64,000 nt of DNA from the IMG/VR virus record IMGVR_UViG_3300042894_002372, positions 16,421-80,420 of that record; one strand, 5' to 3'. Source of the stretch: a virus. How positions within the stretch are numbered: position 1 is the stretch's first letter; the number at the start of each line of letters is the position of its first letter. Under the pieces are notes generated by a model, which had not been told where the DNA came from, did not search any database, and saw nothing but the letters and a program-made list of their open reading frames with translations. Shown here piece by piece: positions 23,985 through 47,813 of this stretch. Both the position numbers and the translations under genes were made by a program.

Positions 23985-24061
23985 TATACTGGTGAGTAGG
24001 GATTGCGGAAACGATCGTATCCGTCATCTTCTGGATATACAGGATAGTCGTTTGCGCTCAT
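23984..24061 (-). CDS. 25-residue microprotein coupled on both sides
   Basis: The ATG at 24061 overlaps the TGA of the upstream gene (ATGA), and the TAA overlaps the ATG of the deaminase gene (TAATG). This double coupling in a 78-base frame argues that it is translated. The product is acidic and aromatic (Tyr, Asp, Pro-rich: PVYPEDDGYDRFRNPYSP). Function unknown. Confidence 0.6.
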   Translation of the reverse strand: MSANDYPVYPEDDGYDRFRNPYSPV

Positions 24062-25242
24062 TTTTTAGGTTGCACTGCTGTTGGAACGTTTCGATACACA
24101 CGCTTGGTAGGGTCGTACACAGTTTTCATTGGGCCTGCACCGGCCAACTGTTTGAGACGAGACATAGCCGCATCAAACTTGTCAGCATCCATATTGCCGA
24201 CTTTTTCGCCTTCATCAATATCAGGCTCTGTCATTTTGCCTAGTCTAGAAATATGCGATTTGCTCATCAAGTGATCATCTTCCGCGTCCGGCTCTGTTCC
24301 GCCGTAACGACTAGCGTCTGCATGATGACGAATACCGGTTGCGGTCTTTTCAACTCGTCCTGGGGTAACAGGCGTAGTATCCTGCTGGCCCGATGGAGGA
24401 CGGCCACGGCCCCTCTCGCCCTCAGCCAGTTCGGGTTCTTGATTGGATTCAATGTAATCAGCCGCTGTGTCAATATAGTCAGCCGCATTAGTAATTTTCA
24501 TTTGTACCCACTCTGGCATATTTTCGTTGTCATCCAACATGCCGTTGAGTCTGCGAGCCGCACGTACAATAGTGTTCAATTGATCTTTTGCTTGGTCACC
24601 TTCGTAATCGTATTCGCCCGAGTCAGCGTGGTCAACAGAGTGGCCATCGCTGTCTACTTTGGCTTCCGCCATGCCTTGCTGACCGTAATCGGCTTCAATG
24701 TTATCCAACATACGATCATAAATTTGTTCAAAGTCATCATCGCCGTGATAGCCTGTATCGATAGAGATATCATCATACATGTCTTGTATAGATTGTTCAA
24801 TTTCTCGGCCGTATTTGCCTTGTTGTGCATTGTATAGCATGTCAAACCCGTTGTCGCCGGATCGTGCAACTTTGTGTAAAAATTCTTCAACATCATTGCT
24901 GCCAGTTTCCGCCACACCTTGAGGTTTATCGTTGGGGTTGGTAGTCAACATAAACTCTTTGTCTTTGTTGAACAGTTTGGCCTGCATTGTACGTGCGGCT
25001 TTGTTTGCGGCAGCCTTATCTTGGAATGCATAAGGATTGCCTGATTTGTCTCGGATCAGTTTTCCATTGAGGCGAATATACCAAGTACTTGACTGCTGGT
25101 CAAGTGCATGATTCTCGTCATTGGCGCCACCGTCTGCACGATATGCTTGTGAGTCTTTGCCAAAGCCACTGGTGCTGTTAGCAACGTCACGTTCATATGC
25201 ATCACGTGGGTCTCTCATTTCGTATAGATCATTTAGGTTCAT
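24058..25242 (-). CDS. Probable virion cargo polyprotein with [VML]AE sites (394 aa)
   Basis: No enzyme is recognised. The N-terminus MNLNDLYE fits an L-x-E prohead-protease site. Further sites follow in GVAE (109-112), GMAE (190-193) and ELAE (271-274), dividing the protein into four modules. The first module has a small W-I repeat-like fold (TWYIRLNGKLIRD, then AAANKAARTMQAKLF). The last contains GIRHHADASRYGGTEPDA and MDADKFDAAMSRLKQLAGAGP. The protein is acidic overall. It is the first of a run of similar proteins up to 36652. Confidence 0.55.
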   Translation of the reverse strand: MNLNDLYEMRDPRDAYERDVANSTSGFGKDSQAYRADGGANDENHALDQQSSTWYIRLNGKLIRDKSGNPYAFQDKAAANKAARTMQAKLFNKDKEFMLTTNPNDKPQGVAETGSNDVEEFLHKVARSGDNGFDMLYNAQQGKYGREIEQSIQDMYDDISIDTGYHGDDDFEQIYDRMLDNIEADYGQQGMAEAKVDSDGHSVDHADSGEYDYEGDQAKDQLNTIVRAARRLNGMLDDNENMPEWVQMKITNAADYIDTAADYIESNQEPELAEGERGRGRPPSGQQDTTPVTPGRVEKTATGIRHHADASRYGGTEPDAEDDHLMSKSHISRLGKMTEPDIDEGEKVGNMDADKFDAAMSRLKQLAGAGPMKTVYDPTKRVYRNVPTAVQPKK

Positions 25243-25940
25243 TATGCTTCCTCTACGTAGTCAGCTGACAGATCTTGTCGGCGTTGTCTAGCCTGGTACA
25301 TTTCCAAGGCCATCTGTGCTTGGTCTAGATTTTTAAAACGGCTCTTCATTGCACGGTCACCATGACGAATTTCAAATCCCGCACGTTCGTCTCCGTATAT
25401 TTCACATGAACGACCGTCTTCTAATGCAATGGTTTTAACCGGTGCTGATTCCGCATAGGTTGGTTCTTGCACAGGTGTTGTGGGCATTTGTACAATGGGA
25501 TTCTCGTCAGTGGGATCTTCTGCAACAGCAGTGATTTGTTTGGCAATGATGCTGGCATCTTTCGCAGGCTTTTTACTGATGTCACGATCTACTCGAACCG
25601 GGTCTTTTAAGTCAGTGTCTTTCTTTTCGTCAGCAATACTGTCAAGGTAGTCAGCAAAGGACTTTTTAACCTTGTCTAACTTGTCTTCACTGGTCACTGC
25701 TTCTTCCAGGGCTTCCTCGTCGTGCTCGACACTTTCGCTGGAGCCAACCATGTAACCAGCACTGGGTGCTTTCTTGTTGGGATTGCCGCCTAGTACTGGA
25801 CCTTGATCGGGCATTTTAAATAATGCAGGCATTTGTGGCACAGACCGTTGTTGTGCGTTCAATCCTTTTGAAACGCTATCTGGTGTGATAGTGCTTTCAA
25901 TCAATGCAAGTCTCTGCATTATCGTGTAAATTTCATCCAT
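25242..25940 (-). CDS. Acidic low-complexity phage protein, probable virion core or cargo (232 aa)
   Basis: Helical start (MDEIYTIMQRLALIE), then long Pro, Lys and Glu-rich linkers and a C-terminal small globular segment (SCEIYGDERAGFEIRHG, then LDQAQMALEMYQ) resembling the repeat modules of the 1295-residue protein. No enzyme recognised. Its stop overlaps the next start. Confidence 0.5.
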   Translation of the reverse strand: MDEIYTIMQRLALIESTITPDSVSKGLNAQQRSVPQMPALFKMPDQGPVLGGNPNKKAPSAGYMVGSSESVEHDEEALEEAVTSEDKLDKVKKSFADYLDSIADEKKDTDLKDPVRVDRDISKKPAKDASIIAKQITAVAEDPTDENPIVQMPTTPVQEPTYAESAPVKTIALEDGRSCEIYGDERAGFEIRHGDRAMKSRFKNLDQAQMALEMYQARQRRQDLSADYVEEA

Positions 25941-26572: not shown

Positions 26573-26850
26573 GTGAGTATCTTTAGTAGATTTCCTTTGA
26601 TTTTTCCGGGACCGTAATCCACACGCATATTTAAAACACGTATGGTGGCACCGGGAGAATTGACAAGTTCGTAACTGATTACATATTCGCCTGGCTCTGC
26701 TTCGATCTGTATCATTTCTTCAAGATACTCATCTCGCCAACGCCAGGTTCTTTCAGCAAATAATTCGTCATCTACGTAAACGCGGTAAACAGGTGGAGTT
26801 TCAGTCCAACTGCAATCAACGTCACATAGCACACGAATAAATTGTTTCAT
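26569..26850 (-). CDS. Small beta-sandwich-like phage protein (93 aa)
   Basis: Alternating strands (VYRVYVDDELFAERTW, then YVISYELVNSPGATIRVLNMRVDYG) suggest a carbohydrate-binding-module-like beta sandwich, as in some phage fibre or baseplate proteins. The same layout is seen at 39353-39787. A late motif CTAAATAC lies 3 bases before the ATG with no Shine-Dalgarno. Confidence 0.5.
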   Translation of the reverse strand: MKQFIRVLCDVDCSWTETPPVYRVYVDDELFAERTWRWRDEYLEEMIQIEAEPGEYVISYELVNSPGATIRVLNMRVDYGPGKIKGNLLKILT

Positions 26851-26853
26851 TGT

Positions 26854-26861
26854 GTATTTAG
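26854..26861 (-). promoter_or_regulatory. Late motif of the leaderless kind before 26850
   Basis: CTAAATAC then ACA and ATG on the minus strand. No Shine-Dalgarno is present. Confidence 0.5.
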
Positions 26862-26890
26862 TGTTATTAACCGCATAGTTAAATTACAAA

Positions 26891-26898
26891 TAAGTATC
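26891..26898 (+). promoter_or_regulatory. Late motif of the leaderless kind before 26902
   Basis: TAAGTATC then TAT and ATG. It is one base off the TAAATATC before 18575. No Shine-Dalgarno. Confidence 0.45.
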
Positions 26899-26901
26899 TA
26901 T

Positions 26902-28854
26902 ATGGCCAACATAACAATTCCTATAGTATCTAAACGCACCGCACCGGTAGTAACAGGTGACGGCGGCGCACGTGATTTAGCTATGATTGAAACCATGAAA
27001 CGCATGGCCGCTAGGCCCGAGCGCACAAGAAAAAATTTAACCCCTGTAAATTTACAATCAAATGTGTCAAGAAACACTCGTGTGGCACTGATACTTGCCC
27101 CAGAATGGGGTCCATATATTCCACCTTATAATCTTGCTAGACTGACCGCACTATCTAAAGCATCCGGGTATGCCACACAATGTTTTGACATAAACATCGC
27201 GGCCTATCACTACGGAGATAAAGACCAGTGGAACGGATACAATGATTGGCGCTGGAAAAATGAAACATATTTTACTGACATACACAGATCTATTGAACCG
27301 TTGTTGATCGAATACATTGACAAGATTGTTGCGTTTAACCCCACTGTTGTGGGTTTCAGCATTTATTACAGCAATAACCAATGTACCAACTGGATTATAC
27401 AACAACTAAGACAGCGTATCCCAGATGTAAGAATTATAGCAGGTGGGCCACAGGCCACGCAAGAACAACTTATTGCACCGGAGTTAATGGACCACATTGT
27501 GGTAGGTGAAGGAGAGATTATTTTCATGGATCTACTAGACAAGGTTGAAAATAACATAGTAATTACCGAGCATATACATCGCCACGACAAAGGTATTCGA
27601 ATTGACCTTGACAGTATGCCCATACCAGACTACAGTGATTTTGATCTAAGCCTGTACACTATGGGCACAGGTATATCTTCTGAAATGAGTCGAGGCTGTG
27701 TGGCCAAATGTCAGTTTTGCAGTGAAACCACATTCTGGAGATATCGTAACAGGCAGGCGTTAAGCATTGTTGACGAAGTGGAATTCAATTACAATCAATA
27801 CGGAATTAAAACAGTTTGGTTCATTGACAGTTTGGTCAACGGTGACCTAACAGAGCTACGTCAGTTTGCTCAAGAAATTGTAGCACGTAAAATAGATATT
27901 GACTGGCTAGGATATGCTAGATGTGATCATCGTATGGACATCAAATACTTGCAAGATCTCAAATCCAGTGGGTGTGCAGTATTAAATTTTGGAGTTGAAT
28001 CAGGATCTAATCATGTTCTTCAATTGATGAAAAAAAATGTCAAACGTGAAGCAGTAGAACAGAATCTAACTGACATGACAGTGATTGGCCTACACGCATT
28101 TACAAATTGGTTTACAGGATTCCCGGGCGAGACACAAAATGATGCTGCCGAAACAATGACACTACTATGGCGCACAAGAAATACCACCATCACTGGCCGA
28201 AACTTTGGAATCTGTAATCTAAATCCAGACACGCCGTTGTCACAGAATAGAGAAGACTTTGATGTAAGTCGTGGGCACTATGGCGGACATTGGGTGACCA
28301 ATGATTATACAAATACAATTCTGCACAGATTAGTCAGATATAAATCCGCTAACATAATACTCAACCATTTGCACTGCGACAACCGGACCCCGCCAGGTAT
28401 TCAATCCCGACCGGAACGCCCGGGTATTGAATCGCACTATGAATTGTTGTACGACAAAAACAACATACAAGATATCATACCCTACGAAATGTTTGACTAT
28501 GCCATAATCAAGCTGTCAACAAATCCCATTGCTGATTCGTTGGTAAACGAAATATGGCCGTTGTTACGAGTATTATGGTTGGCAGTGGGCGAATTTAAAT
28601 TGGATGTGAGATTTGATCCCACAATTGATTTGCCAGAATTCGGGCCTGGATCGTGTTTGAATGATGGCTTGCGTCCCAATGATTATTTTAAAGCACATTA
28701 CAAATTTGAAATTGGCAGACATGGTGCGTGGCATGCGGATTTTGCTACAGAATTACAAGCAGGCGGCCCCAATGGCAATCCCACTCAGGACGGAAAAACC
28801 TATGCATTTACTCATGCATGGCAAGGCACCGGAACCTGGGATCGCCCCGAATAA
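26902..28854 (+). CDS. B12-binding-type radical SAM protein
   Basis: 650 residues from the ATG at 26902, preferred because a late motif lies just before it. An N-terminal cobalamin-type Rossmann region (PYNLARLTALSKASGYATQCFD; VGFSIYYSNN; IIAGGPQATQE; VVGEGE) precedes the radical SAM motif CVAKCQFC near residue 268. Later parts resemble elongator/MiaB-like C-terminal segments (LGYARCDHRMD; FTGFPGET). The family does methylations, ring rearrangements and other radical chemistry. It pairs with the desaturase 31 bases downstream, which suggests lipid modification, but this is inference. Confidence 0.8.
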   Translation: MANITIPIVSKRTAPVVTGDGGARDLAMIETMKRMAARPERTRKNLTPVNLQSNVSRNTRVALILAPEWGPYIPPYNLARLTALSKASGYATQCFDINIAAYHYGDKDQWNGYNDWRWKNETYFTDIHRSIEPLLIEYIDKIVAFNPTVVGFSIYYSNNQCTNWIIQQLRQRIPDVRIIAGGPQATQEQLIAPELMDHIVVGEGEIIFMDLLDKVENNIVITEHIHRHDKGIRIDLDSMPIPDYSDFDLSLYTMGTGISSEMSRGCVAKCQFCSETTFWRYRNRQALSIVDEVEFNYNQYGIKTVWFIDSLVNGDLTELRQFAQEIVARKIDIDWLGYARCDHRMDIKYLQDLKSSGCAVLNFGVESGSNHVLQLMKKNVKREAVEQNLTDMTVIGLHAFTNWFTGFPGETQNDAAETMTLLWRTRNTTITGRNFGICNLNPDTPLSQNREDFDVSRGHYGGHWVTNDYTNTILHRLVRYKSANIILNHLHCDNRTPPGIQSRPERPGIESHYELLYDKNNIQDIIPYEMFDYAIIKLSTNPIADSLVNEIWPLLRVLWLAVGEFKLDVRFDPTIDLPEFGPGSCLNDGLRPNDYFKAHYKFEIGRHGAWHADFATELQAGGPNGNPTQDGKTYAFTHAWQGTGTWDRPE

Positions 28855-28874
28855 CAATTTAGCAGTAGTTTTGC

Positions 28875-28882
28875 TTAAATAC
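28875..28882 (+). promoter_or_regulatory. Late motif of the leaderless kind before the desaturase
   Basis: TTAAATAC then TCA and ATG at 28886. No Shine-Dalgarno. Confidence 0.5.
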
Positions 28883-28885
28883 TCA

Positions 28886-29590
28886 ATGACTGAACTTATC
28901 TATACCCTAATAGTCACACATATCACTATAATCTGTGTTACATTATACCTACATCGCGGGCAAGCACATCGCGGCATTGTTTTTACTCCTGTGTTAGAAC
29001 ACTTCATGCGCTTTTGGTTATGGGGAACTACCGGCATGGTGACCAAACAATGGGTTAGCATCCATCGCAAACATCACAGATTTAGTGATGCAGAAGGTGA
29101 TCCACATACTCCGCATGTGTACGGCATAGGTCGTGTGTTGTTCCGTGGCGCAGGCCTGTATCACTCAGCCAGCCGAGATGCTGACATGGTGGCACAATAT
29201 GGCGTAGGTACACCGGATGACTGGATGGAACGCAATGTGTACACTGCACACAGCAGACTGGGCATTGTGTTAATGCTGGCAGTTGATGTTGCGTTGTTTG
29301 GTGTGTGGGGTGTGTTAATCTGGGGTATACAAATGGCATGGATACCGTTCTGGGCAGCCGGAGTTATCAACGGCATTGGACATTGGTGGGGATATAGAAA
29401 TGGCGAAACTAAAGATCACAGCAGAAACATTGTGCCTTGGGATATTGTTGTTGGTGGCGAATGCCTGCATAACAACCATCATCTGGATCCTGCTAACCCT
29501 CGACTGAGCCGTCGTTGGTTTGAATTTGATGCAGGATGGATGTGGCTCACAGTATTTAGACTAGTAGGACTGGCTCGCTTACGTAGTTAA
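28886..29590 (+). CDS. Fatty-acid desaturase, delta-9 acyl type
   Basis: 234 residues from ATG 28886; the longer frame upstream overlaps the radical SAM gene and lacks family similarity. Three histidine boxes of membrane desaturases are visible: HRGQAH near residue 23, HRKHH near 60 and HNNHH near 195. Hydrophobic segments flank them. It inserts a double bond in acyl chains in the inner membrane using a ferredoxin-type donor. The 3' end overlaps the opposite gene by 4 bases. Desaturases are known auxiliary genes of cyanophages. Confidence 0.9.
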   Translation: MTELIYTLIVTHITIICVTLYLHRGQAHRGIVFTPVLEHFMRFWLWGTTGMVTKQWVSIHRKHHRFSDAEGDPHTPHVYGIGRVLFRGAGLYHSASRDADMVAQYGVGTPDDWMERNVYTAHSRLGIVLMLAVDVALFGVWGVLIWGIQMAWIPFWAAGVINGIGHWWGYRNGETKDHSRNIVPWDIVVGGECLHNNHHLDPANPRLSRRWFEFDAGWMWLTVFRLVGLARLRS

Positions 29591-29775
29591 CGCAGTTCTT
29601 TGATTGAGCCCACGTGCCAATCTTCAATGCGGTACTGTGCTTTGATCATTTGTCTGGCCACATGAGTGTTGGGAGCCCAGACCACTGCATCAACCCAGCC
29701 CACATATCCAGGATTTTGAACACGCACTTTGGCAGTCCATTGCTTTGCACCTCGAACGATTTCTTTGGCTCGCAT
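29587..29775 (-). CDS. Small protein with a single cargo-repeat module (62 aa)
   Basis: Starts MRAKEIVRGAKQW, a degenerate capsid-targeting-like tag lacking the final Glu. The remainder (WTAKVRVQNPGYVGWVDAVVWAPNTHVARQMI, read in two halves) resembles one copy of the repeated module in the 1295-residue protein. Its ATG touches the stop of the next gene. Confidence 0.5.
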   Translation of the reverse strand: MRAKEIVRGAKQWTAKVRVQNPGYVGWVDAVVWAPNTHVARQMIKAQYRIEDWHVGSIKELR

Positions 29776-31268
29776 CAGCAGTTCCAGCGACGACGTGCTT
29801 TACAGATGGCCTTGTCTGGCGTTTTGGCACATGAAATACTGTGCATCTTCATTTGTCCGCGACTGCGGCTACAATAACTCTTTCTACGCTTGCTGGCCTT
29901 GCTACCCCGCTTTAGTTTGCTGGGTTTGGTAGTCACAGCAGTCTTTAGTTTAGAACCAGGATTCTCTCTGCGATAAGCATTCACAGCCTTTTGACTCATG
30001 CCTGCAGTACGATCTCGTTTGTTGGCCTTTTGCCAGTCTTCGTTCAGTTGCGAAGTCACAGCAAACGCATACAGTTCATCTTCGGTCAGGCTTTCTAGGT
30101 CCTCCCATACTGCTTCAGCATCTACACCATTTTGTTCAGCAATGCCTTCGATAATAGATTCAATAAGATCAAACTCTTCTGTCAAGCCTTCTTCAGCATT
30201 GGGTTTGTCACGGAGTGGGCCGCCTGTGACCCAGGCATCGCAGGTTCTACGGCTGGCACATTTGAATTTTAAGAACTTACAATAACCCATCTCACCTGCA
30301 TCAATTACACCGGCTGCATCCGCAGGAGAGTCACTGTCGATGCCTTGAGCAATGCAGTCCAGGGTGTGTTGACGTATATCAAAAGCCGCACAGTTGCCGC
30401 ATAGGCTCGACTTGGCTTCGTCTACTGAGTCCAAGTTCCACTCATCAACTTTTTTCATCCAGAACTTAGTGTTGGGCATGTCTGGATTTAGCGGCCCATA
30501 GCCATAGTCATCAATGGCTTTTTGTCTGTTCTTGAGATTGAGTGTAATGTCTTGTGTAGCAGGCGGGCACTTGTTATCAGAGTCTTCTACTATGCTTTCA
30601 GCAGACACACAGTTGGGAACCTGACGGCCACCTTTGTTCTTCATGCCCTGTTGTTGATAACCGTCCCAGCATTTTTCATCCAGTTGTGCTTCCGCCGCCC
30701 CTTGTTCATCTATGCTTTCTCCAGTACCTACGTTATGTCTAAATTCAATGGCCTTAGTATCTGTGTTGTATATTGTAAAGTAAGTGTTTGGATCGTGCGT
30801 TTCTTTGGCCATTGATTTAACAACTTCAAAAGCTTCGTTTTTAGTTAATACTTTTGAAGATACATCTTTGCTGTTGATATAAACTTTATAAACTCTATCC
30901 CGGCCACTATTTAAATTCAAATCTCGATTTACTCCTAGTCTTTCGTCAGGAGATAATACTTTATTTTTAAACCAACGGAACAATAACCAGAAGAAATAGG
31001 ACATAGCAATGCCATTGACTACCATTTGGGCAACATCGTTAAAGCCTTCCGCCACACCTTCTGATTTGTTGCCATAGTTGCCCGCACCTTTTTTGCGACA
31101 CTGTACCAGTCGACCGGATGCATAAGCACTGGGCCATACTTTTGCACTAGCCTTGACCTTGTAGTAGCAGGCATCTTTCTTTTCCATCAGATCTGAATAT
31201 TCAACCACAGGTCCACCACAGTGCGGACAAGTGTGTTGTGATTCTGTAATGATATCTTTTATGTTCAT
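29775..31268 (-). CDS. Cys-rich mosaic virion/cargo protein (497 aa)
   Basis: N-terminus MNIKDIITES gives an I-T-E site. Modules in order: a zinc-like CPHCGG segment; KVWPSAYASGRLVQCRKKG; GVAE (about 69-72); one hydrophobic segment MSYFFWLLFRWF; a small W-I-type module; GAAE (about 190); CWDGYQQQGMKNKGGRQVPNC; a Cys-rich block LCGNCAAFDIRQH...YCKFLKFKCASRRTCDAW; then acidic GLTE/GIAE sites and a basic C-terminus SYCSRSRGQMKMH. These modules recur in aquatic phage proteins without known function. Probably packaged and cut by the prohead protease. Confidence 0.55.
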   Translation of the reverse strand: MNIKDIITESQHTCPHCGGPVVEYSDLMEKKDACYYKVKASAKVWPSAYASGRLVQCRKKGAGNYGNKSEGVAEGFNDVAQMVVNGIAMSYFFWLLFRWFKNKVLSPDERLGVNRDLNLNSGRDRVYKVYINSKDVSSKVLTKNEAFEVVKSMAKETHDPNTYFTIYNTDTKAIEFRHNVGTGESIDEQGAAEAQLDEKCWDGYQQQGMKNKGGRQVPNCVSAESIVEDSDNKCPPATQDITLNLKNRQKAIDDYGYGPLNPDMPNTKFWMKKVDEWNLDSVDEAKSSLCGNCAAFDIRQHTLDCIAQGIDSDSPADAAGVIDAGEMGYCKFLKFKCASRRTCDAWVTGGPLRDKPNAEEGLTEEFDLIESIIEGIAEQNGVDAEAVWEDLESLTEDELYAFAVTSQLNEDWQKANKRDRTAGMSQKAVNAYRRENPGSKLKTAVTTKPSKLKRGSKASKRRKSYCSRSRGQMKMHSISCAKTPDKAICKARRRWNC

Positions 31269-31699
31269 TTTTTAGTTCCTTTTGTGCTGACATTTATTGC
31301 TGGTCCTGAACGATTGGCATTGGGATCTTTACGGCGTTTTCTGGCTGCGGCACTGGCCCGGCCTTTTTTACCCAGAGCATGTGCTTTGGCCTGTGGCAAA
31401 CACTTGGGTTTGCCTTCTGATTCCGACCCTCGAGCACAGTCACCACGTATTTTACCGTCGGGTCCAAAGCGTACCCATTTGTCTTTGAACCAGTCACGAA
31501 GATTTTCATTCACGTGTGTGTTGGCATGTGCCTCACACATGCCACATGTTTCACACACCATTTCCATTTCAACTGATTCGTTCTGTTTTCGTTTACCGGC
31601 ACAGTGCGCCTTTTGTGAGAAGCCTCGAGGGTGGCTGCAATTGATACTGCTTTTGTATTTTTTGCTCCACTTTTCGAATACAAACTCACTTGCTTTCAT
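31265..31699 (-). CDS. Capsid-targeting-tagged Cys- and Lys-rich protein (144 aa)
   Basis: Starts MKASEFVFEK (tag with V-F-E site). Two recurrent phage modules follow: SSINCSHPRGFSQKAHCAGK, and a DWFKDKW...CARGSESEGKPKCLPQAKA part. The C-terminus is very basic (RASAAARKRRKDPNANR), which suits DNA binding inside the capsid. A late motif precedes it within the upstream gene. No enzyme recognised. Confidence 0.55.
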   Translation of the reverse strand: MKASEFVFEKWSKKYKSSINCSHPRGFSQKAHCAGKRKQNESVEMEMVCETCGMCEAHANTHVNENLRDWFKDKWVRFGPDGKIRGDCARGSESEGKPKCLPQAKAHALGKKGRASAAARKRRKDPNANRSGPAINVSTKGTKK

Positions 31700-32763
31700 T
31701 TTTTCTTACCTCGTCTCATATTTAGTTGCCACTGTGCCATCCTGCGGCGTTCACCTGTGCTGGATCCAGCAATCTTTTCCAGTTGGCCCAAGGTGGCTTT
31801 TTTAGGAATCCCTACTCGCTTGCTCAAGCCCTTGCGTCCAGGATTCTTACCATCTGCAAAATTCTCTGCTACACCTTGCTTGGGAATCAACAATTCAGGC
31901 ATACGATACTCACTGACATCTACTGGATATGGCTGTAGTGATGCTTTGTATAATTCAGCATATTGTTCTTGTTCTTCAGGTGTCTTGGCTCTGTAAAACT
32001 TGTTGGCAATGGCCATGTCGCCTACTAAAGTTCCTGGTGGAATTGAAATCTTTTTTGGACCATAGTATTTTAATTTGTCAGAATCTTTGTTGGTCAAACT
32101 GTAAAAGGTTGATTCCCATTTGTCTGGATGCAGGGCATATTGTGCAGTTGCTCTTTCTGGCACAAACTCTGCAAGTGTATCTGCACCAGGATGAAATTTA
32201 CCTAACTTGGATAAACTTATAGCAGTATCATTGCTTTCGCCTTCCGCCACACCTTGTGGGCCCTGTTCAACAGCTACATAAGCAGGACCGGTATAACCAT
32301 CTGGATACTTATGAAAGTGCTGAATAGTTCTATGCCAACCTTCTAGCAAATCATAACCATCGGGACGTTTAACAAGTATCACAGGTTCTCTACGAACACC
32401 ACCTTGTTGTTGTGCTAATGCCGCTTGAGTGGCATGTCTTTCTTTGTCTTTTGGAACACCCATACCTAAATCACTACTCCCACCGGCACGGCCTATTAAT
32501 AGTTGTTTAGTCTTTGGATCAAACATATCCATTGTAAACTTCATATCGGGTATCAGTTGCCATTTAGTGTTAATAGTAAGACCTGCACCTTGCACTTTTT
32601 CTATAATGCCGTTTTTAACAGCGTCTGCAGGGAGATTACTAAAATTGCCTTTGTTGGGTACTAGCCAATCTTTAAGGACATACTCAGGCCAAGTGGGCAA
32701 CAGACTCTTAACATATTGTAATAGTCTATCTCTATATTCGATTAAAAATTCATTGGCTCGCAT
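31696..32763 (-). CDS. Capsid-targeting-tagged protein with ParB-like domain (355 aa)
   Basis: Starts MRANEFLIEY (L-I-E site). A ParB/sulfiredoxin-like core is seen in REPVILVKRPDGYDLLEGWHRT near residue 135-155. GVAE sites follow near 177 and 298. The second domain (FVPERATAQYALHPDKWES to DVSEYRMPELL) is unrecognised; the C-terminus KNPGRKGLSKRVGIPKKATL...GERRRMAQW is a basic module recurrent in aquatic phages. ParB-like domains may act as nucleases or CTP/ATPases; here it could be a delivered effector. Confidence 0.6.
   Translation of the reverse strand: MRANEFLIEYRDRLLQYVKSLLPTWPEYVLKDWLVPNKGNFSNLPADAVKNGIIEKVQGAGLTINTKWQLIPDMKFTMDMFDPKTKQLLIGRAGGSSDLGMGVPKDKERHATQAALAQQQGGVRREPVILVKRPDGYDLLEGWHRTIQHFHKYPDGYTGPAYVAVEQGPQGVAEGESNDTAISLSKLGKFHPGADTLAEFVPERATAQYALHPDKWESTFYSLTNKDSDKLKYYGPKKISIPPGTLVGDMAIANKFYRAKTPEEQEQYAELYKASLQPYPVDVSEYRMPELLIPKQGVAENFADGKNPGRKGLSKRVGIPKKATLGQLEKIAGSSTGERRRMAQWQLNMRRGKKK
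31718..31725 (-). promoter_or_regulatory. Late motif before the 144-residue gene
   Basis: CTAAATAT on the minus strand, 18 bases before the ATG at 31699; a GAGG Shine-Dalgarno follows. Confidence 0.45.
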
Positions 32764-32764
32764 G

Positions 32765-35700
32765 TTAACTCACTATTGGTAGCACAGTAACATCTGTGCC
32801 ATAGCTGTAGCCATTGTCGGTCAACCACTGTGTGGCCACACGGTTAGCATCACGCTGTTGATTGCCTATGCCGGAAAATCTATGCAGTTCATTACCATCA
32901 GAATCTACAATCTTCCAAGCACCTGTAAATGCGCCTGGTACAGCTCGTTGTTGTGCTAGGTCTGCGGTGGATCCTGCCACAGGTGTAGATGCCGTTTCTT
33001 CTGCTGGTTCAACTTGATAGTTGCCATCAAAGTCGTTTTCTCTGGCCCATAGTGCGGCTAACTCATTGGCTTTTGCTCTAGTGTTTTCTGCAGGACGGAA
33101 ACGATATACTTCGCGATTTAATCCGTCAATAATTTTCCACTGTCCTGTTGGGCTTGTGGCTGTACGACCTGCGGCTATTGGCATGTCTAAGCCAACAATT
33201 CCAACTCCACCGACGGTACGTATGCCAAACATACGTTCAGCCTGACCTCGTTGTAGGCTATGTGGACCGTGTTCAATGTAATCATTGAGGCGAACCAATG
33301 CCTCTTCATCATTGGTGATTCCATCAGCATCCTCTACTGAGTTGCCAGTTTGTTTGTTGTAGATTTCATATTTGGGAGTTTGCTCGGCAGGTGCTTCGCG
33401 AACAGGAACAGCTGACCAACCGTTGTTTCTGAAGAACTCTTCCTCGGTGGCACCACTGGTGTTTAAATTCCATTCTTTTCTGGCTTTTTTCATTGCTTCA
33501 AATTCAGTAGAAGCAACAACCTCTATACCCTGACTCTGATATGGAGAATCACTGCTACCAGTGACTTTCCAAACAAAGGTCTGCTGAGATTCTTCATATG
33601 GACGCAACGGTTTGGCAGTCATATCTTTAGCCGTGGCCCAATCTGGGTATTCTGCCCGGCCTTTTTCAATTGCTTCTTCCTTGCTGGTAGCAACAACTTC
33701 AACACTGGCACCAAAACCTGGGCGGCCCACACGCCACCAATATTTCTTACCTTCGGTTGGATCTTTTTTAATTTTGCGTTCTAGTTGTGCTTGTTTAACA
33801 AAACTACGCAAGGCAGCTGCAGGAATCTTGCCTGCCACATATTCACTGAAGTACTTGATAGTATCGTCACCCTTTTGATCCTGCGTCAACAACTTGTACA
33901 GTTTCTTCAAGTATTCTTCGCGATACATTTCGGGGTTCAGGGCCGCACTCATGGCCACTGTGAATCGCAACAGAGTGTTTTCGATCTTGTCAAAGTTTTC
34001 GTCCAACCAATCGCCACCGGGTGAGCGGAATTCAATGTGTCCGTCTTTGGTATTGATACTGGTATACTTGCTAGTAGCACCTGAGTGTATGGCCTTGCTT
34101 GCCAAACTGTCCAGGTTGCCTTTCATTTTGTCCAGCAAACGTTCGGCTTCGTCAGGTTTAGTGCGCACTTGATCGCGTACCAATTTCATTGCTGATTTAG
34201 CGTAGGTATTGCCAGCACGACCAAAGTTGTCCAGCACATACTCGTCGCCCATTAACAGGGCTAGTTTAACAAAGTCCAAGTTTTCTCTACTGTAGTTGGG
34301 TACAGATATGTTGATGTGCAGGCCTGTTGAATCATTGGTGTAGCAACCATATACCTTGGCCCACTTTTTAACCTTGTTCAAGTCACTTAATATATCGTCA
34401 ATGGGCAAGGGTGGACTTACAAACTCCAGGCCTACATCATCGCTGTCATCGGCTTCTAAACTGCCATCAGGTTCCACAATATAATGTTGTGCAGTTGGGC
34501 TGGGTCTTGTTACCCCGCCACTGTGGTAGTTGCCGCTGGCTCGAACGTCACGTCCTATAGCATCTTGAAATTCGTTGGCAACATCTTCGATACTGGCCTC
34601 ACCGCCACCCTGTGAATACAAGTGAGGCCAATTTATATCATAATTGCTTTCAACGTCCTGCATGGTATTGATATTATTATCTTCCAGCCATTCTGATTCT
34701 AAATCTGCATTTTGATTAAAATCTTCTTGAGCGGATTCACGTGCGGCATCATACCAGTAGTTGCCGTAGCCTTCTTCAACAATTTTTTCGGCAGCATTGC
34801 GATATACTTGTCTATCGGGCTCTGGGTATTCACCGTAATCGCCGGGTTCTATACCTAGTATTTCTGCAATTTCATCTGCACTGGCGTTTTCTTTAATGTA
34901 GTTGTAAACAAATTCAACTTCGTCTCCGTCCCAACGAGTATCAAACGACTCACTTAGCCATTCGTAATATTGATCCTGCATCCGGTCACGCAGTCTAGTG
35001 ACATCGCCGCGGCTGTTGTAATCTCCATCGTAGAAGAAATCATAAGCCTCCTGTATGCTACTAACACCTTCATCGTAACTGTAATCGGCTTCCATTTGAC
35101 CGTCGTCATCGCCGCCTTCCACATTGGGCACAATCATTTCAAATTCCATGCCGGCAATAGCACCGGTCTTGGCCGCTTCACGACGCAGGCTACCTGTGCT
35201 CATGTTGATTTCGAACAACTCATCTTCGTATATCAGCGGCAACTGCCCAGTTTCTTTAAACTCACGCAGTGCATTGGCCAAGCCGGTCATTAACAAGCCT
35301 GGTTGTCCTTGACTGTTGGTCTTTAGTCCTAGTTTGTTTGCTTCTTTACCCACAGCACCAGGACGTACATCTCGGGTCAGAGCCATGCTAAAGCGTGGAT
35401 CCTTGGCCTGCTTCTTTGTGGGAATATATCCTGATGCTTCTGCTAAATCATCTGTTTGGCCGGCAGCAAAATGTTCCGGGTGCAGTTTGGCATAGTTACG
35501 CATGAGTACGCCGGCACGAGCATTGGCTTCGTTTTCGTATGGACTGCCAGTTTCGCCTGCGTCAGATCCCATGTCACTGCCATCACGTTCGTGTTGATGT
35601 TTGTGTGTGAGTTCATGTGCCACTGTGCGCAACACATCCATGATGTGTCGTTGTCCCCAGGCCACTTCTAACATTTTTTCATTGTCGTTGTAGCGACCAA

Positions 35701-36652
35701 ACGTCTTGTGCCGCACTGGCCACTGTGGATCTTTACGCAGGCGAACACGTGGCATCTGTTCAATTGTTAATTCTGCAACACAAAACTCCACAAAGTCTGT
35801 GAGTATATCTTCATCTGACTTGGGTTCTTCATTCAAGAACATCTGTGTTGTGGGACTTACTCCGTCCCATGAAGCACCAACATCTTCTGTGGCTTTGAAT
35901 CCGTAGGTGAATTTAAATGGTTTATCGATTTCAATAGACCGTTCTTTAAGACTCAGTGCTCGATCTTTGGCAGCGGTTCTGGCATCATACAACTGTTGTA
36001 TCACACCTTGTGAACGCAACATCTTGTACGCAATGTTTTCTGGACCCAGTTCACCATGCTGATCAAGTCCGGCTTGACGCATCTTTTTAATCTTGGCAGC
36101 AGTGTTGGTTAGACGTTTTAGGTTGCCAGATTTCACTGCTGATTCAATACGATGCTTGATCACATCGTACTTGCTCTTGACCGCAGTGTCGTTTATTGTG
36201 GAACGTTTTTTCAGTGGAATGTTGATCCAGTCGTTATTCAGCACACTGAATATGCCTTGACTCACTGCTGATTTGTTGGCGTTTTCCACATAGAGTTCTA
36301 CATCGTAGCCACCAATTTTGATATTGTGTGTTTCGTTGTACTGAAACTTTTTAGCATCAAACAGCTCGCGATACACTTCACTCACATCTGCTTCAGGCAG
36401 GTCAACTACCAAGTGCAAGTCTATGTCACTATGTGGAGTATATGTGTAACCAGCATTGCTGCCGGACAAGGTAATGTCTTTGACATTTAAGTCGCCAATC
36501 CCCAAACTTTGTTTAAAGTCTTCAGCAATTTTTAACAGCGTGGCCCGCACCTGTGGGCGCATTTTATTGCCCTGCCAGATGCGTGGGTTTAACTGTTCAT
36601 TAAATTTAACAGCGTCAGCAAGGTTGTAGGAATCTAGTTCAAGAATATTCAT
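32765..36652 (-). CDS. Polyvalent-type protein: nucleotidyltransferase, HExxH metallopeptidase and amidoligase domains with repeats (1295 aa)
   Basis: Start at 36652 is chosen because a late motif lies 8 bases before it. Domain 1 (about 55-130) is a nucleotidyltransferase: GS at 64-65, SDIDL at 75-79, then VELYVE. Domain 2 (about 290-390) is a zinc peptidase with HELTH (346-350) and ENEANARAG. A DDLAE site (401-405) starts a recurrent module SGYIPTKKQAKDPRF. Domain 3 (about 500-960) resembles amidoligases (GMEFEM, GLHINIS, EFRSPGGDW). The last 325 residues carry at least four short repeats. This domain mix matches the phage polyvalent-protein class delivered with DNA. Confidence 0.75.
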   Translation of the reverse strand: MNILELDSYNLADAVKFNEQLNPRIWQGNKMRPQVRATLLKIAEDFKQSLGIGDLNVKDITLSGSNAGYTYTPHSDIDLHLVVDLPEADVSEVYRELFDAKKFQYNETHNIKIGGYDVELYVENANKSAVSQGIFSVLNNDWINIPLKKRSTINDTAVKSKYDVIKHRIESAVKSGNLKRLTNTAAKIKKMRQAGLDQHGELGPENIAYKMLRSQGVIQQLYDARTAAKDRALSLKERSIEIDKPFKFTYGFKATEDVGASWDGVSPTTQMFLNEEPKSDEDILTDFVEFCVAELTIEQMPRVRLRKDPQWPVRHKTFGRYNDNEKMLEVAWGQRHIMDVLRTVAHELTHKHQHERDGSDMGSDAGETGSPYENEANARAGVLMRNYAKLHPEHFAAGQTDDLAEASGYIPTKKQAKDPRFSMALTRDVRPGAVGKEANKLGLKTNSQGQPGLLMTGLANALREFKETGQLPLIYEDELFEINMSTGSLRREAAKTGAIAGMEFEMIVPNVEGGDDDGQMEADYSYDEGVSSIQEAYDFFYDGDYNSRGDVTRLRDRMQDQYYEWLSESFDTRWDGDEVEFVYNYIKENASADEIAEILGIEPGDYGEYPEPDRQVYRNAAEKIVEEGYGNYWYDAARESAQEDFNQNADLESEWLEDNNINTMQDVESNYDINWPHLYSQGGGEASIEDVANEFQDAIGRDVRASGNYHSGGVTRPSPTAQHYIVEPDGSLEADDSDDVGLEFVSPPLPIDDILSDLNKVKKWAKVYGCYTNDSTGLHINISVPNYSRENLDFVKLALLMGDEYVLDNFGRAGNTYAKSAMKLVRDQVRTKPDEAERLLDKMKGNLDSLASKAIHSGATSKYTSINTKDGHIEFRSPGGDWLDENFDKIENTLLRFTVAMSAALNPEMYREEYLKKLYKLLTQDQKGDDTIKYFSEYVAGKIPAAALRSFVKQAQLERKIKKDPTEGKKYWWRVGRPGFGASVEVVATSKEEAIEKGRAEYPDWATAKDMTAKPLRPYEESQQTFVWKVTGSSDSPYQSQGIEVVASTEFEAMKKARKEWNLNTSGATEEEFFRNNGWSAVPVREAPAEQTPKYEIYNKQTGNSVEDADGITNDEEALVRLNDYIEHGPHSLQRGQAERMFGIRTVGGVGIVGLDMPIAAGRTATSPTGQWKIIDGLNREVYRFRPAENTRAKANELAALWARENDFDGNYQVEPAEETASTPVAGSTADLAQQRAVPGAFTGAWKIVDSDGNELHRFSGIGNQQRDANRVATQWLTDNGYSYGTDVTVLPIVS

Positions 36653-36660
36653 GATTGTAA

Positions 36661-36668
36661 TATTTAGC
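36661..36668 (-). promoter_or_regulatory. Late motif before the 1295-residue gene
   Basis: CTAAATAT on the minus strand, 8 bases before the ATG at 36652. No Shine-Dalgarno is seen, so the leader would be 2-3 bases. Confidence 0.5.
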
Positions 36669-36677
36669 GCAAATGAA

Positions 36678-36703
36678 AAAGCCACTGGGCAAAGTGGCTT
36701 TTG
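36678..36703 (-). terminator. Bidirectional intrinsic terminator
   Basis: 9-bp stem AAAAGCCAC / GTGGCTTTT with an 8-base loop and T-rich ends on both strands. It follows the glycosyltransferase-like gene at 36726 on the minus strand and separates it from the 1295-residue gene. Confidence 0.8.
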
Positions 36704-40356: not shown

Positions 40357-41031
40357 TTATGATTTTATGATCTGAATTGTGTTTTTTATCAAGCCGGGAT
40401 ATACCAAACTCAACATGGTCATCCAGCCAGTGTCCGTGTGATCCACAAAATAATACGACTCAGTCCAGCCTCGCCAATTAGTGTGCAATGTCCAGTCCTT
40501 CAATCCCGGACTTAATCTAATGCCTTCTTGCTTTTTTAACAAGTTGCTGATTGATCGTTTTTGCTGTTCGTTTACCACCACTGATCTCAAGTAGGTGCGA
40601 TGCGTGTATGCAGATTCTTTAAGACAGATAGTGTCTCTGGGACGATCAATCACTGCTTGTGTGTAGGTTAGATAACTAAGCCCTGACACTGTGTCTGTTA
40701 TTTCAGAGAACAGTTCGGAATCATTGGTGTACACACGTACTTGATTGTATTCTATCACCACTTTGTGTTGATATTTGGTGTTGATCAACACATCACACAT
40801 GCTGTGTAAATTTTTTACCACGTCATCTGTGATGGCCCGGTTTGCAGAATAGTAGTCTTGTAGTTTGTTTACCCACTCTCTACGCACTGATACAACGTGA
40901 TCAATTGCATCATGGTCAAGTTTACGCAGGCATCCTGCTTCCCGCAGCCGGCCATACATGCAGTATCGGTATTGATCGTAAAACAACCGATCTTTACTTA
41001 CATCATTGAATGTTGGGATTGAATTGGTCAA
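40357..41031 (-). CDS. Unknown protein linked to the ClpA gene (224 aa)
   Basis: No domain recognised; the type is known from T4-like marine phages. Aromatic-rich N-terminus (DQYRYCMYGRLREAG), central strands (YQHKVVIEYNQVRVYTND), and WTLHTNWRGWTESYYFVDH near 180. The gene overlaps the ClpA 3' end by 29 bases, so it is probably expressed with it. Confidence 0.55.
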   Translation of the reverse strand: MTNSIPTFNDVSKDRLFYDQYRYCMYGRLREAGCLRKLDHDAIDHVVSVRREWVNKLQDYYSANRAITDDVVKNLHSMCDVLINTKYQHKVVIEYNQVRVYTNDSELFSEITDTVSGLSYLTYTQAVIDRPRDTICLKESAYTHRTYLRSVVVNEQQKRSISNLLKKQEGIRLSPGLKDWTLHTNWRGWTESYYFVDHTDTGWMTMLSLVYPGLIKNTIQIIKS

Positions 41032-43285
41032 TTACAATGTATCCTTCGTCATTGACAACAGGTATGGTCAATGTTGATGTGGTTGTGAATTCCACTGCGT
41101 CATTGACCATACTGGCATGAATTGCACAGTCAGCAATTTGATCAAACAAGATGCGCTTGCTCAATGGTACACGGATCAGTTCGTCAATCTTGCGACCCAA
41201 TGGACGAGCACCCATCTTGGGATCGTAACCCTTGTCTGCCAGCATGTCGATCACATCTTCAGCAAAGGTAAGACGAATGTTCTTGCTCAACAATGTTTCT
41301 TGCAACTCTGCTGTGAACTTGACCACAATTTTCTTGATGGCCAATTTGTCCAACTTGTTGAACTTGCACACTTTGTCAATACGATTACGCAGTTCAGGCT
41401 TGAAGAACTCTTTCATGGCACGATCTTCTTCGCCAGATTTTTCTAATGATTGACCAAAGCCAATGTTGTTGTTTTCATTGTCTCTAGCACCCAGGTTCGA
41501 AGTCATTATAATGATACAGTTCTTGACGTCAACTGATTTACCACTGCTGCCGGTGATCCGGGCCTCGTCCAGCATCTGCAACATGATGTTGACCACATCC
41601 GGGTGTGCCTTTTCAATTTCGTCAAACAACAGGATACTGAACGGGTGCTTGGAAATATCGCTGATCAACTTGCCACCACCCACATTGCCGTCATCAAAGC
41701 CCACATATCCCGGTGGCGCACCAATCAAACTGGCAATGCTGTGCTTCTCTTGGAACTCACTCATGTCATATTTCAGCAGGTGCATGTCGAGATTTTTACT
41801 CAGCAGTTTGGCCAATTCTGTTTTACCTGTGCCGGTTGGACCCAGGAACAAGAAACTGGCCACAGGCTTTTTAGCATTGCCAATGCCGGAGAAGTTGATG
41901 TAGATACGTTCTAGCACAGTGTCAATGGCTTCGTCTTGTCCGTACAAGAACTGCTTGATGTTACCTTCAAGTTCAGTGACTTTGGTACTGCGTTCGTTTT
42001 GTAATCTATCCAGTGGAACTCCAGTGACACGACTGAGTTGCGCCATAATCATGTCACGGTTGATAGTGACTGTGCCTAGGTCTTTGACACGTTCTCCAGC
42101 ACAAGCGCCATCCAACAGGTCAATTGACTTGTCAGGATTCTTACGATCATGAATGTAGCGTCCACTTAGTTCCACAGCCGCTGTCATTGCTTCTGTGTCA
42201 ATTAGCACATTGTGGAATGTTTCTAACCGGGGGCTAATGCCAATTAAGATTTGTTCAGTGGTTTCTGCATCGGGCTCACCAATGTTGACTCTGTGGAATC
42301 GACGCATCAACGCACGATCCTTTTCAAACGATTCGTAGTATTCTTCCCAAGTAGTTGATGCAATGACCTTGATGTTGCCTTTGGTAATGGCCGGCTTGAT
42401 CATGTTGGCAAAGTCCAAACTGCTGGAGCCACTGGTGCCAGCACCCATCATGGTGTGTGCTTCGTCAATGAACAAGACACAGTTCTTTTTGGTTTCCAAC
42501 GCGGCAATAACGTCCTTGAACTTTTCTTCAAACTCTCCGCGATACTTTGAACCTGCTAGTAAGGATCCAATCTCTAATCCCCAAACTTCAGAGCCTTTAA
42601 GGAACTCTGGAACACGACCTGCGTTGATCTCCTGTGCAAGCCCGTCGATGATGGCCGTTTTGCCCACACCTGGATCGCCTACCATGAGTACATTGGCCTT
42701 GAACTTGCGAGCCAACACAGTGATCATTTCTTCAAGTTCAGTGGCTCGACCAATCATTGGCTCTAACTTGCCGTCGGTTGCCATCTTGCTTAGATTTGTA
42801 CAGTGTTGATCCAGTATCTCGTTTGCACTTTCGTTGCTGAGACCTTTTTCTGGTGCGCTGTGATTCTTTTGGTAGAACTCAGCAAACTCAGTTTTGTGAA
42901 CGCCATACTTCAACAAGAAATAGTGTGCATGACTGTTGTTTTCTGCCATCATTGCTAGATATAAATCCAACAGTGTAATTGATCTGCGTCCGGTAAACAG
43001 CACCTGTGTTAAAGCACGATTAAACATACGCTCAAGGCCATTTGTTTTGCGTGGTGTGTAATCTTCTTTGCTGGTTAGTAAACTAACCTGCGATAGGATA
43101 TATGCACTGAGTTCGCCTTCAAACTGTTCAACGGCTGTGCCGTATTTGATCAACACCGATCGAAACGGTGCGTATTGAATCATGGCCATCAATACATGTT
43201 CAGTTATTACATAAGCATGGTTGTGGGCTTTGGCAATAGCAACAGCATTGTTGACAATCTTTTCAATTTCAGGATTATTTTGCAT
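41003..43285 (-). CDS. clpA: ClpA-type AAA+ unfoldase
   Basis: 760 residues. ClpN-like helical domain (1-150), AAA-1 with GDPGVGKT near 195 and LFIDEAHT near 265, AAA-2 with LGPTGTGKT near 495 and LLFDEIEKAHPD near 565. The segment NIGFGQS near 622 lies where ClpA/ClpX carry the IGL/IGF loop that docks ClpP. No ClpP gene is visible in the window, so this unfoldase may use host ClpP. A consensus-like sigma70 promoter precedes it, so expression is probably early. Confidence 0.9.
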   Translation of the reverse strand: MQNNPEIEKIVNNAVAIAKAHNHAYVITEHVLMAMIQYAPFRSVLIKYGTAVEQFEGELSAYILSQVSLLTSKEDYTPRKTNGLERMFNRALTQVLFTGRRSITLLDLYLAMMAENNSHAHYFLLKYGVHKTEFAEFYQKNHSAPEKGLSNESANEILDQHCTNLSKMATDGKLEPMIGRATELEEMITVLARKFKANVLMVGDPGVGKTAIIDGLAQEINAGRVPEFLKGSEVWGLEIGSLLAGSKYRGEFEEKFKDVIAALETKKNCVLFIDEAHTMMGAGTSGSSSLDFANMIKPAITKGNIKVIASTTWEEYYESFEKDRALMRRFHRVNIGEPDAETTEQILIGISPRLETFHNVLIDTEAMTAAVELSGRYIHDRKNPDKSIDLLDGACAGERVKDLGTVTINRDMIMAQLSRVTGVPLDRLQNERSTKVTELEGNIKQFLYGQDEAIDTVLERIYINFSGIGNAKKPVASFLFLGPTGTGKTELAKLLSKNLDMHLLKYDMSEFQEKHSIASLIGAPPGYVGFDDGNVGGGKLISDISKHPFSILLFDEIEKAHPDVVNIMLQMLDEARITGSSGKSVDVKNCIIIMTSNLGARDNENNNIGFGQSLEKSGEEDRAMKEFFKPELRNRIDKVCKFNKLDKLAIKKIVVKFTAELQETLLSKNIRLTFAEDVIDMLADKGYDPKMGARPLGRKIDELIRVPLSKRILFDQIADCAIHASMVNDAVEFTTTSTLTIPVVNDEGYIVIDQFNPNIQ

Positions 43286-43314
43286 CTTTTCCTTTTGTGG
43301 TTCGTGTATATATT

Positions 43315-43343
43315 ATTATACAGCAATTTGTTTTATATATCAA
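43315..43343 (-). promoter_or_regulatory. sigma70-type promoter of clpA
   Basis: Minus-strand TTGATA (43338-43343), 17 bases, TATAAT (43315-43320). The dnaJ TGA stop lies inside the -35 box. AAAAGGA follows before the ATG. Confidence 0.85.
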
Positions 43344-44119
43344 GAGGTAATTGTTCGTTTTTGCTCTATCATGTCCAGCAGATCTTTTGGTATGTCTTTG
43401 GGAATCACTGCCTGTATTTGAACCAGCATGTCGCCGGGACCTGTGCGTCCGGGCAATCCTCTGCCACGTAATCTCAGTCGAGCGCCAGGCTGTGTGCCTT
43501 TTGGCACAACAATGGTTATCTCGTTGCCCAGCAAATCTTTAACTACAGTTTCGGTGCCTAGTATAAGATCCCAGATGTTTACTTCGTGGTCAGTTAACAG
43601 ATTTGATCCTTGTCGACCCCAGGTTGAACTGGCAGCAATTCTAAAAGTTATCACAAGATCACTGCTGTGTGGACCAATGCCCCGGTACTGAACGCTGTCG
43701 CCATCGTTGATGCCCACAGGAATTTCTATTTCTACTGTAGACGCACCAATGCCAATTGTGCGTTTGCCACCTGTTGCTACATCTGCCAAAGTAATAGTTA
43801 AGTTTGCACGACTGACTGTGGGCTGGTGGCGTTGTTGACGCTGTCCAAACTGTGTGCCAAACACATTAAAGATAGTATCAAAATCAAACTGTGGGCCACC
43901 TGCCGGATTAAAGTTGTTGAACTGTGGTCTGGGATTGTCGTACTGTTGTCGTTTGGCACTGTCGCCTAGGGTGTCATAAGCGGCTTGTATTTCTTGAAAC
44001 CGGGCAGTGTCTCCACCTTTGTCTGGATGATGTTGGCTGGCCAACTTACGAAAAGCCCGTTTGATTTCATCTTGCGTGGCAGTTCGGCTCACGCCCAAAG
44101 TTGAATAGTAATCTATCAT
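43340..44119 (-). CDS. dnaJ: DnaJ/CbpA-type J-domain co-chaperone
   Basis: 259 residues. J domain (1-60) with the HPDKGG motif; a Phe/Gly/Gln-rich linker; C-terminal client-binding domains ([36 protein letters not shown]). The Cys-rich zinc region of DnaJ type I is missing, as in CbpA. It recruits host DnaK. The ATG follows directly on a T-run of a terminator; the mRNA comes from a promoter embedded in that hairpin. Confidence 0.92.
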
Positions 44120-47535: not shown

Positions 47536-47813
47536 TTAACGACTCCTTCAAATATATTTTTTTGTATTCGATACCACTGTTGCCAAGCATCTGCTTTCAC
47601 AGCGCACTCATAGTATGTGCCATAGTTGATGGTTACTGTTCTAGCAACATCACTTAACACAGGTGCATCTTTTAATTTTTCTAAATTGGGACAACGTTCT
47701 AAAGAGTTTAGTCCAGGCGGATCAGGAAACCGTGCAGTAACTGGTACTGCGGTTGAGCATCCTGCAAGTGCCACAAGTGTAACTAAACTAGCTACGACAC
47801 GTTTGTTGATCAT
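47532..47813 (-). CDS. Outer-membrane spanin lipoprotein, Rz1-like
   Basis: 93 residues. Lipoprotein signal peptide with lipobox LAGC and a Pro-containing mature start (VPVTARFPDPP). Further on there are two Cys (RCPNLEK and YECAVKA). Together with the Rz-like protein at 48163 it should fuse inner and outer membranes in the last step of lysis. The position in the cassette supports this. Confidence 0.65.
   Translation of the reverse strand: MINKRVVASLVTLVALAGCSTAVPVTARFPDPPGLNSLERCPNLEKLKDAPVLSDVARTVTINYGTYYECAVKADAWQQWYRIQKNIFEGVVK

Follow-up and report, generated by a model that had tools for sequence, protein, structure and literature searches.

The 64,000-nucleotide stretch analysed here (the window; positions 16,421 to 80,420 of IMG/VR virus record IMGVR_UViG_3300042894_002372) holds a 1295-residue open reading frame (ORF). 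A preliminary description, made from the letters alone, took its product for a polyvalent protein with a nucleotidyltransferase (NTase), a HELTH metallopeptidase and an amidoligase in one chain, sitting among tagged cargo genes. Does such a chain act as one protein, or is it a string of separate enzymes? The source record, a fragment of 80,420 bp, belongs to a large virus that infects freshwater bacteria. We favor the reading, at a probability of about 0.78, that in a T4-related jumbo phage the gene is expressed late and its product is a polyprotein that is packaged in the capsid and probably processed by the prohead protease. Judged from sequence, the chain probably does not act as one protein but is split into its separate enzymes within the prohead.

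Enzyme modules of the chain

Read on the minus strand, the ORF starts with an ATG at 36652 and stops at 32765. A GTG at 36685 opens a longer ORF of 1306 residues; 36652 was preferred as the start because MN[IL]xEL is conserved there. The plus-strand reading of 32765-36652 has stops throughout and was rejected. The gene and its modules are as follows.

32765..36652, minus strand: polyvalent polyprotein gene, 1295 residues, stop codon included (ORF and relatives)
35948..36631, minus strand: Pol-beta-type NTase with C-terminal helices (phrog_36119), residues 8-235 (profiles, AlphaFold2, Foldseek, conservation)
35459..35818, minus strand: HELTH gluzincin-like metallopeptidase, residues 279-398 (profiles, AlphaFold2, Foldseek, conservation)
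35603..35617, minus strand: zinc motif H346-E-L-T-H350, third ligand E373 (invariant, 45/45)
35303..35434, minus strand: SGYIPTKKQAKDPRF small module, residues 407-450 (also directly after the NTase in other phages)
33773..35203, minus strand: amidoligase of glutamine-synthetase fold, residues 484-960 (PF12224, Foldseek, conserved residues)
32774..33745, minus strand: about five tandem beta-beta-alpha-beta units, residues 970-1293 (AlphaFold2 secondary structure, repeat profile)

A PDB sequence search with the whole 1295-residue protein gave no match. AlphaFold2 in two models (mean predicted local distance difference test score, pLDDT, 75 and 74; predicted template modelling score, pTM, 0.43 and 0.38) placed folded parts at residues 8-233 (NTase), 279-398 (zincin) and about 484-960 (amidoligase), with a disordered linker at 237-276 and the tandem units at the C-terminal end. 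Foldseek searches with these models returned weak E-values (0.007 to 0.5), but the leads match independent profile matches and motifs.

NTP_transf_2 (PF01909) scored 20.1 bits on the whole protein (E=8.7e-4; cut-off 21) and 23.0 bits, above the cut-off, on the NTase domain alone (E=1e-4). PHROG 36119 matched residues 8-235 with E=5.5e-37. The GS motif, DxD and third acidic residue of Pol-beta NTases are present, and G64, S65, D76, D78 and E119 are invariant in 45/45 aligned relatives. Foldseek pointed to AadA/AAD(9) adenylyltransferases (probability 0.85). These and the MNT nucleotidyltransferases, the top Foldseek and profile leads, share the Pol-beta core and C-terminal helices with the module, but identity is only 11-20% and the phage NTase belongs to the phage-specific family phrog_36119. 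Our guess is that it would nucleotidylate a host protein, RNA or small molecule. A standalone cyanophage NTase (L062, S-CRM01 g125) ends in DKSLSL where the polyproteins go on with xE and cargo.

For the metallopeptidase, Peptidase_M78 (PF06114) reached 17.6 bits (E=3.4e-3), under the 22-bit gathering cut-off, and the zincin is therefore classed as gluzincin-like, not as M78. The zincin profile found only chance-level matches in PDB, and a fold search was used instead; the model matched the mini-gluzincins jannalysin and abylysin with a probability of 0.99. It shows an HExxH helix, a Glu in the next helix and a zincin fold, with H346, E347, H350 and E373 invariant in 45/45 aligned relatives. 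HExxH and the downstream Glu are common to the mini-gluzincins and Peptidase_M78, whereas the phage zincins form a distinct phage clade. We would guess that it cleaves a protein of the host (or of the phage core). The same zincin occurs alone as MRAREFVVE/STFQEHEEQ (L133) and inside a larger protein as LLSLNE/STYQEHEDQ (L118), with 90% identity across the aligned stretch (the slash marks the junction here and below).

Amidoligase_2 (PF12224) matched residues 687-882 with 31.9 bits (E=1.6e-7; gathering cut-off 22 bits). The amidoligase profile had no match in PDB. The model has a glutamine-synthetase-like fold, with Foldseek leads to glutamine synthetases, YbdK and PafA (probability up to 0.89, E 0.009), and E503, E505, H710, E727, D729, H779, E874 and R876 are invariant in 20/20 aligned relatives. 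Profile, glutamine-synthetase/PafA-like fold and invariant acidic and His residues are shared with the COOH-NH2 ligase superfamily; unlike Amidoligase_2 proteins in general, this one sits in a phage polyprotein and carries a long helical insertion. ATP-dependent formation of amide bonds on a protein or peptide is a guess at its activity. The beta-beta-alpha-beta units that follow (about 50 residues each, W-x-[IV]...G-x-E...RF...ANxxAxxW) match no recognised family. They were considered as a tag common to the neighbours and rejected, with no useful scores beyond this protein family.

Close relatives are found in 30 viral contigs, most in the same module order. Of the complete ones, most can be aligned over the whole length, N- to C-terminus, and identity in the best segment is 42-100%; added modules bring some chains to more than 2,000 residues. 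For this reason the three-domain reading is, on sequence comparison, not due to chance. The chain combines at least two unrelated catalytic domains in one polypeptide, as in polyvalent proteins. Profile searches and structure prediction recovered all three domains of the preliminary description in the very ORF it had given (minus strand), and Pfam profiles, predicted folds and invariant catalytic residues agree.

Late-promoter motif and prohead-protease-type sites

The T4 late promoter is TATAAATA. A similar sequence, CGCTAAATA at 36669-36661, stands directly ahead of the ATG.

36661..36667, minus strand: CTAAATA, T4-type late-promoter core, 8 nucleotides ahead of the ATG (TAAATA family-wide)

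The TAAATA core lies upstream of the gene in 16/16 relatives, and the rest of the upstream sequence differs in many of them. It is found within 45 nucleotides upstream in 76 of the 77 NTase-led family genes (2 expected). A related 347-kb contig (G001) has it within 40 nucleotides of 68/421 genes, the portal gene included, against 4.3 expected. These statistics support late transcription of the polyprotein gene. The exact TATAAATA promoter is not enriched in the window and was rejected; the form of this lineage is mostly (C/G)TAAATA.

T4 gp21 cleaves after the E of L/I-x-E, and a 10-residue N-terminal sequence is enough to target proteins into the T4 head (PMC9026906). The 1295-residue chain carries such triads at its N-terminus and at module borders.

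36638..36646, minus strand: I3-L4-E5, N-terminal [LI]xE site (E5 21/21, P2 variable; residues 1-5 predicted disordered)
35942..35950, minus strand: L235-K236-E237, [LI]xE at the NTase end (L 21/21, E 19/21, seven residue types at P2)
35819..35947, minus strand: disordered linker, residues 236-278, with a DGVxPTTxMFLxE peptide (pLDDT < 50 for 237-276)
35828..35836, minus strand: L273-N274-E275, [LI]xE ahead of the zincin (L 16/17, E 16/19)
35210..35218, minus strand: L479-F480-E481, [LI]xE at the amidoligase start (21/21; residues 476-482 predicted disordered)

In the AlphaFold2 models the [LI]xE sites fall within disordered segments or at their edge, and E5 is kept in 69/77 members of the wider family. 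We searched an alignment of 21 relatives for triads with [LI] in at least 90%, at least four residue types next and a third residue conserved in at least 80%. With E as the third residue, the triads end at positions 5, 237, 275 and 481, every one a module junction; the other 19 residues pooled gave 4 occurrences, 0 of them in junctions. The junctions were set by us from profile borders, which makes the test partly post hoc. All 56 non-identical copies of the amidoligase module whose start is covered, internal and N-terminal ones alike, have [LI]xE directly ahead of them, and P2 takes at least eight residue types. Standalone amidoligases have an N-terminal [LI]xE in 16/16 clusters against a background of 13%. 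An N-terminal [LI]xE by itself is not enriched genome-wide (46/343, other residues similar), and weight is given to it only where position, register and conservation go with it. In some relatives (L103, L104, L077, L078 and L099) the NTase/zincin linker peptide DGVxPTTxMF[LT]xE is tandemly duplicated, and some copies end in FTNE or FTSE, not in [LIV]xE.

Related phages of 320-347 kb have a gp21 (S77) protease; genes for both an S77 protease and a gp23-type capsid protein are present in four related contigs of 228-347 kb. The protease of G001 is 35% identical to T4 gp21, in the gene order portal, core protein, protease, scaffold and gp23-type capsid protein, and the gp23-type major capsid protein has a conserved L[KR]E near the expected start of its mature N-terminus. 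Directly after the major capsid gene, G001 encodes a protein (L038, 9457-10233) with HHIVPRSLGG...HFVCHWLL and NGMFGKHHT-type repeats, resembling an HNH-type homing endonuclease.

Zincin-like metallopeptidases have been proposed to process polyvalent proteins (PMC5512222), and the conserved residues suggest that the HELTH zincin is catalytically intact. Autoprocessing by this zincin with the prohead protease uninvolved is nevertheless highly improbable: [LIV]xE junctions are also found in members with no recognised zincin (e.g., GNAT- or ART-bearing chains), the motif is that of gp21, whose type of protease the related phages encode, and the zincin also occurs as a standalone protein, half of whose clusters have their own N-terminal [LI]xE.

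Targeting peptides and tagged neighbours

Many unrelated short proteins of these phages start with M[RK]xxEF[LIV]xE, the pattern of T4 ipII and ipIII (MKTYQEFIAE in the T4 record). When 126 T4 ORFs were examined, the targeting pattern matched ipII and ipIII only; in the relatives, 64 matches were start-anchored and 2 internal. The polyprotein does not carry an M[KR]xxxEF[IL]xE targeting peptide, whereas its neighbours and some standalone homologues of its modules do. The neighbours in the window are listed here.

31696..32763, minus strand: cargo neighbour with a capsid-targeting-like MRANEFLIE start, two GVAE junctions and a C-terminal NFADGK module
31265..31699, minus strand: cargo neighbour, MKASEFVFE start, then a KWSKKY module
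29775..31268, minus strand: cargo neighbour, MNIKDIITE start, GVAE/GAAE/GIAE tags and a DUF6321 C-terminus
25242..25940, minus strand: cargo neighbour, N-terminal LIE ending at residue 15
24058..25242, minus strand: cargo neighbour, MNLNDLYE start, GVAE and GMAE tags

The tag was removed from 93 tag-bearing proteins and the remainder was searched inside larger proteins. At 114 internal junctions (at least 50% identity), P1 was E in 92% and P3 was L/I/V in 84%, with flat flanks at P4 and P1'. Control standalones lacking an N-terminal [LIVM]xE had [LIV]xE at 4% of 319 internal junctions. Examples are MRAQEFVTE/NFADG (standalone) versus KQGVAE/NFADG (in the window, about 31875), MKASEFVFE/KWSKKY (window 31699) versus DYIEE/KWSQKY, and MRANEFLIE/RATSVV versus NEQLNE/RATSVV. 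Because the same modules carry [LIV]xE at their junctions and the controls do so at 4%, the recurring GVAE tag is most simply read as the internal form of the [LIV]xE targeting-peptide cleavage site. The surroundings of tagged cargo noted in the preliminary description thus gain a likely explanation in this internal form, next to the T4-like capsid-targeting N-termini of the neighbours. As a universal genome-wide tag GVAE was rejected in G001, which has only 4 exact copies, and three of these lie in genes adjacent to the polyvalent gene.

We propose that a T4-type late promoter would transcribe the polyprotein gene along with the structural genes and that the N-terminal region and/or an associated core would bring the product into the prohead. 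There a gp21-type (S77) protease, cutting after the E of [LIV]-x-E, would open the disordered junctions at E5, E237, E275 and E481 and so free the NTase, the gluzincin metallopeptidase, the amidoligase and the small accessory domains within the head. At ejection the freed enzymes would enter the next cell along with the DNA, for nucleotide transfer, proteolysis and amide-bond ligation on host targets. We infer the cutting from the triad and junction statistics, the packaging from analogy and tagged relatives, and, beyond these, the ejection and the action on host targets.

In cyanophages the zincin and the NTase occur alone close to replication genes, and only 3/27 standalone zincins have the late-promoter motif, as might be expected of enzymes that are not virion cargo but work inside the cell late in infection, modifying proteins of the phage or the host ahead of lysis. 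This alternative is very unlikely in view of the late promoter, the targeting-like tags and the clustering with tagged genes. The N-terminal [LI]xE of all 16 clusters of standalone amidoligases also speaks against it, as does phage Atu_ph07, where the standalone amidoligase is encoded two genes away from the portal gene.

Several points weigh against a packaged and cut polyprotein. The 80-kb record of the window has neither a protease gene nor the head-gene region, so the specificity is borrowed from relatives and T4. The N-terminus of the polyprotein is MNILELDSYNL, not the EFLxE-type targeting peptide of the neighbours, and the site at the NTase end lacks its E in about 20% of family members. 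For the predicted structures, pTM is 0.38-0.43 and the Foldseek E-values lie above 0.001. The counts cover related sequences, not independent events, and effective samples are smaller than they look. The E5 site may be structural, because conservation runs on past it.

That E5 sits within a conserved N-terminal stretch also suits a multi-enzyme polyvalent protein packaged and injected whole, with the [LI]xE triads structural or in N-terminal use only; N4 virion RNA polymerase is packaged unprocessed despite a metallopeptidase domain (PMC5512222). We consider this unlikely. The [LI]xE sites lie in disordered linkers with P3 and P1 fixed while P2 varies, and the same register precedes standalone modules behind a targeting peptide, whereas the control fusions lack it.

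Distribution and relation to known systems

Scans with single domains recovered at least 593 relatives for the NTase, at least 559 for the zincin and 370 for the amidoligase. The NTase-bearing family spans at least 593 viral contigs, with the NTase at the N-terminus or a few residues away and a highly variable downstream part; it is internal in L028 and L029. A search of 84,980 species genomes gave matches only in four short contigs of metagenome-assembled genomes, which argues for a phage family. In cultured phages the NTase is found alone in cyanophages, Molly and Cr30, the zincin alone in cyanophages B23 and S-SRM01, and the amidoligase alone in Atu_ph07. Pfam domains in the relatives include GNAT, ART-PolyVal, ParB-like, M48, DUF5661 and DUF6934. 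ART-PolyVal (PF18760), characteristic of polyvalent proteins, is present in the NTase-led relatives L188 and L204 (E 1e-13 and 1e-15); the 1295-residue chain itself has none.

With disparate enzymes in one chain, a phage-only family encoded here by a virus record, and ART-PolyVal in family members, the assignment to polyvalent proteins stands. The class, as defined by Iyer et al. (2017; PMC5512222), has several unrelated enzymatic domains per phage chain, and Pol-beta NTases and zincins are named among its domains; the present family adds ART-PolyVal, GNAT and ParB-like domains to the likeness. The NTases described there are minimal and mainly from firmicute mobile elements. The amidoligase goes beyond the domains listed in that paper, where the word has 0 occurrences. 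Processing is zincin-centred there, whereas the present gene has a T4-type late promoter and prohead-protease-type sites. Among the papers searched, prohead protease and polyvalent protein occur together only in PMC5512222, where prohead protease stands in a reference title. The class is known; what is new is an NTase-led family with modules bounded by T4-type prohead-protease sites.

T4 IPI-III and Alt, which have a capsid targeting sequence and are processed by gp21 (PMC9026906), share the N-terminal [LI]xE, and the MKTYQEFIAE of ipII and ipIII resembles the M[RK]xxEF[LIV]xE starts of the neighbours and standalone modules. In T4 each gene encodes a single cargo protein, whereas here one chain holds several cargo modules, with copies of the site between them. 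Comparison of the mature parts of T4 internal head proteins with this cargo found no sequence relation, and PMC5512222 sets T4 Alt apart from "genuine polyvalent proteins".

We think it reasonably likely that this T4-related jumbo-phage lineage loads its heads with combinatorial cargo polyproteins, in which a constant NTase leads variable enzyme modules bounded by prohead-protease sites. One late gene would then deliver several separate effectors in a fixed ratio, and modules would move freely from fused chains to standalone, capsid-targeted proteins and back, much as if polymorphic toxins had an equivalent in phages. Packaging and processing of polyvalent proteins have been proposed before and hardly tested. 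In the present case the sequence itself provides cleavage sites that are exact and falsifiable, together with a late promoter and the name of a protease. The rule of [LIV]xE at module starts connects polyvalent proteins with the internal proteins of T4 and could be used to read module boundaries in the genomes of hundreds of uncultured phages, and thus to pick out candidates for injected effectors. If the chain is cut in the head, it would represent a modular route for loading enzymes bound for the next host cell.

Other genes in the window were noted in passing. Two more unrelated tagged proteins lie on the minus strand outside the main cargo cluster, at 46891-47535 (MRSQEFIDE) and 47810-48166 (MRAREFIIE). 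In the middle of the cluster, 26842-29590 on the plus strand encodes a B12-binding radical SAM protein and a probable fatty-acid desaturase-like protein. Upstream of the cluster, at 41003-44119 on the minus strand, a ClpB/ClpA-like ATPase adjoins a DnaJ-like protein.

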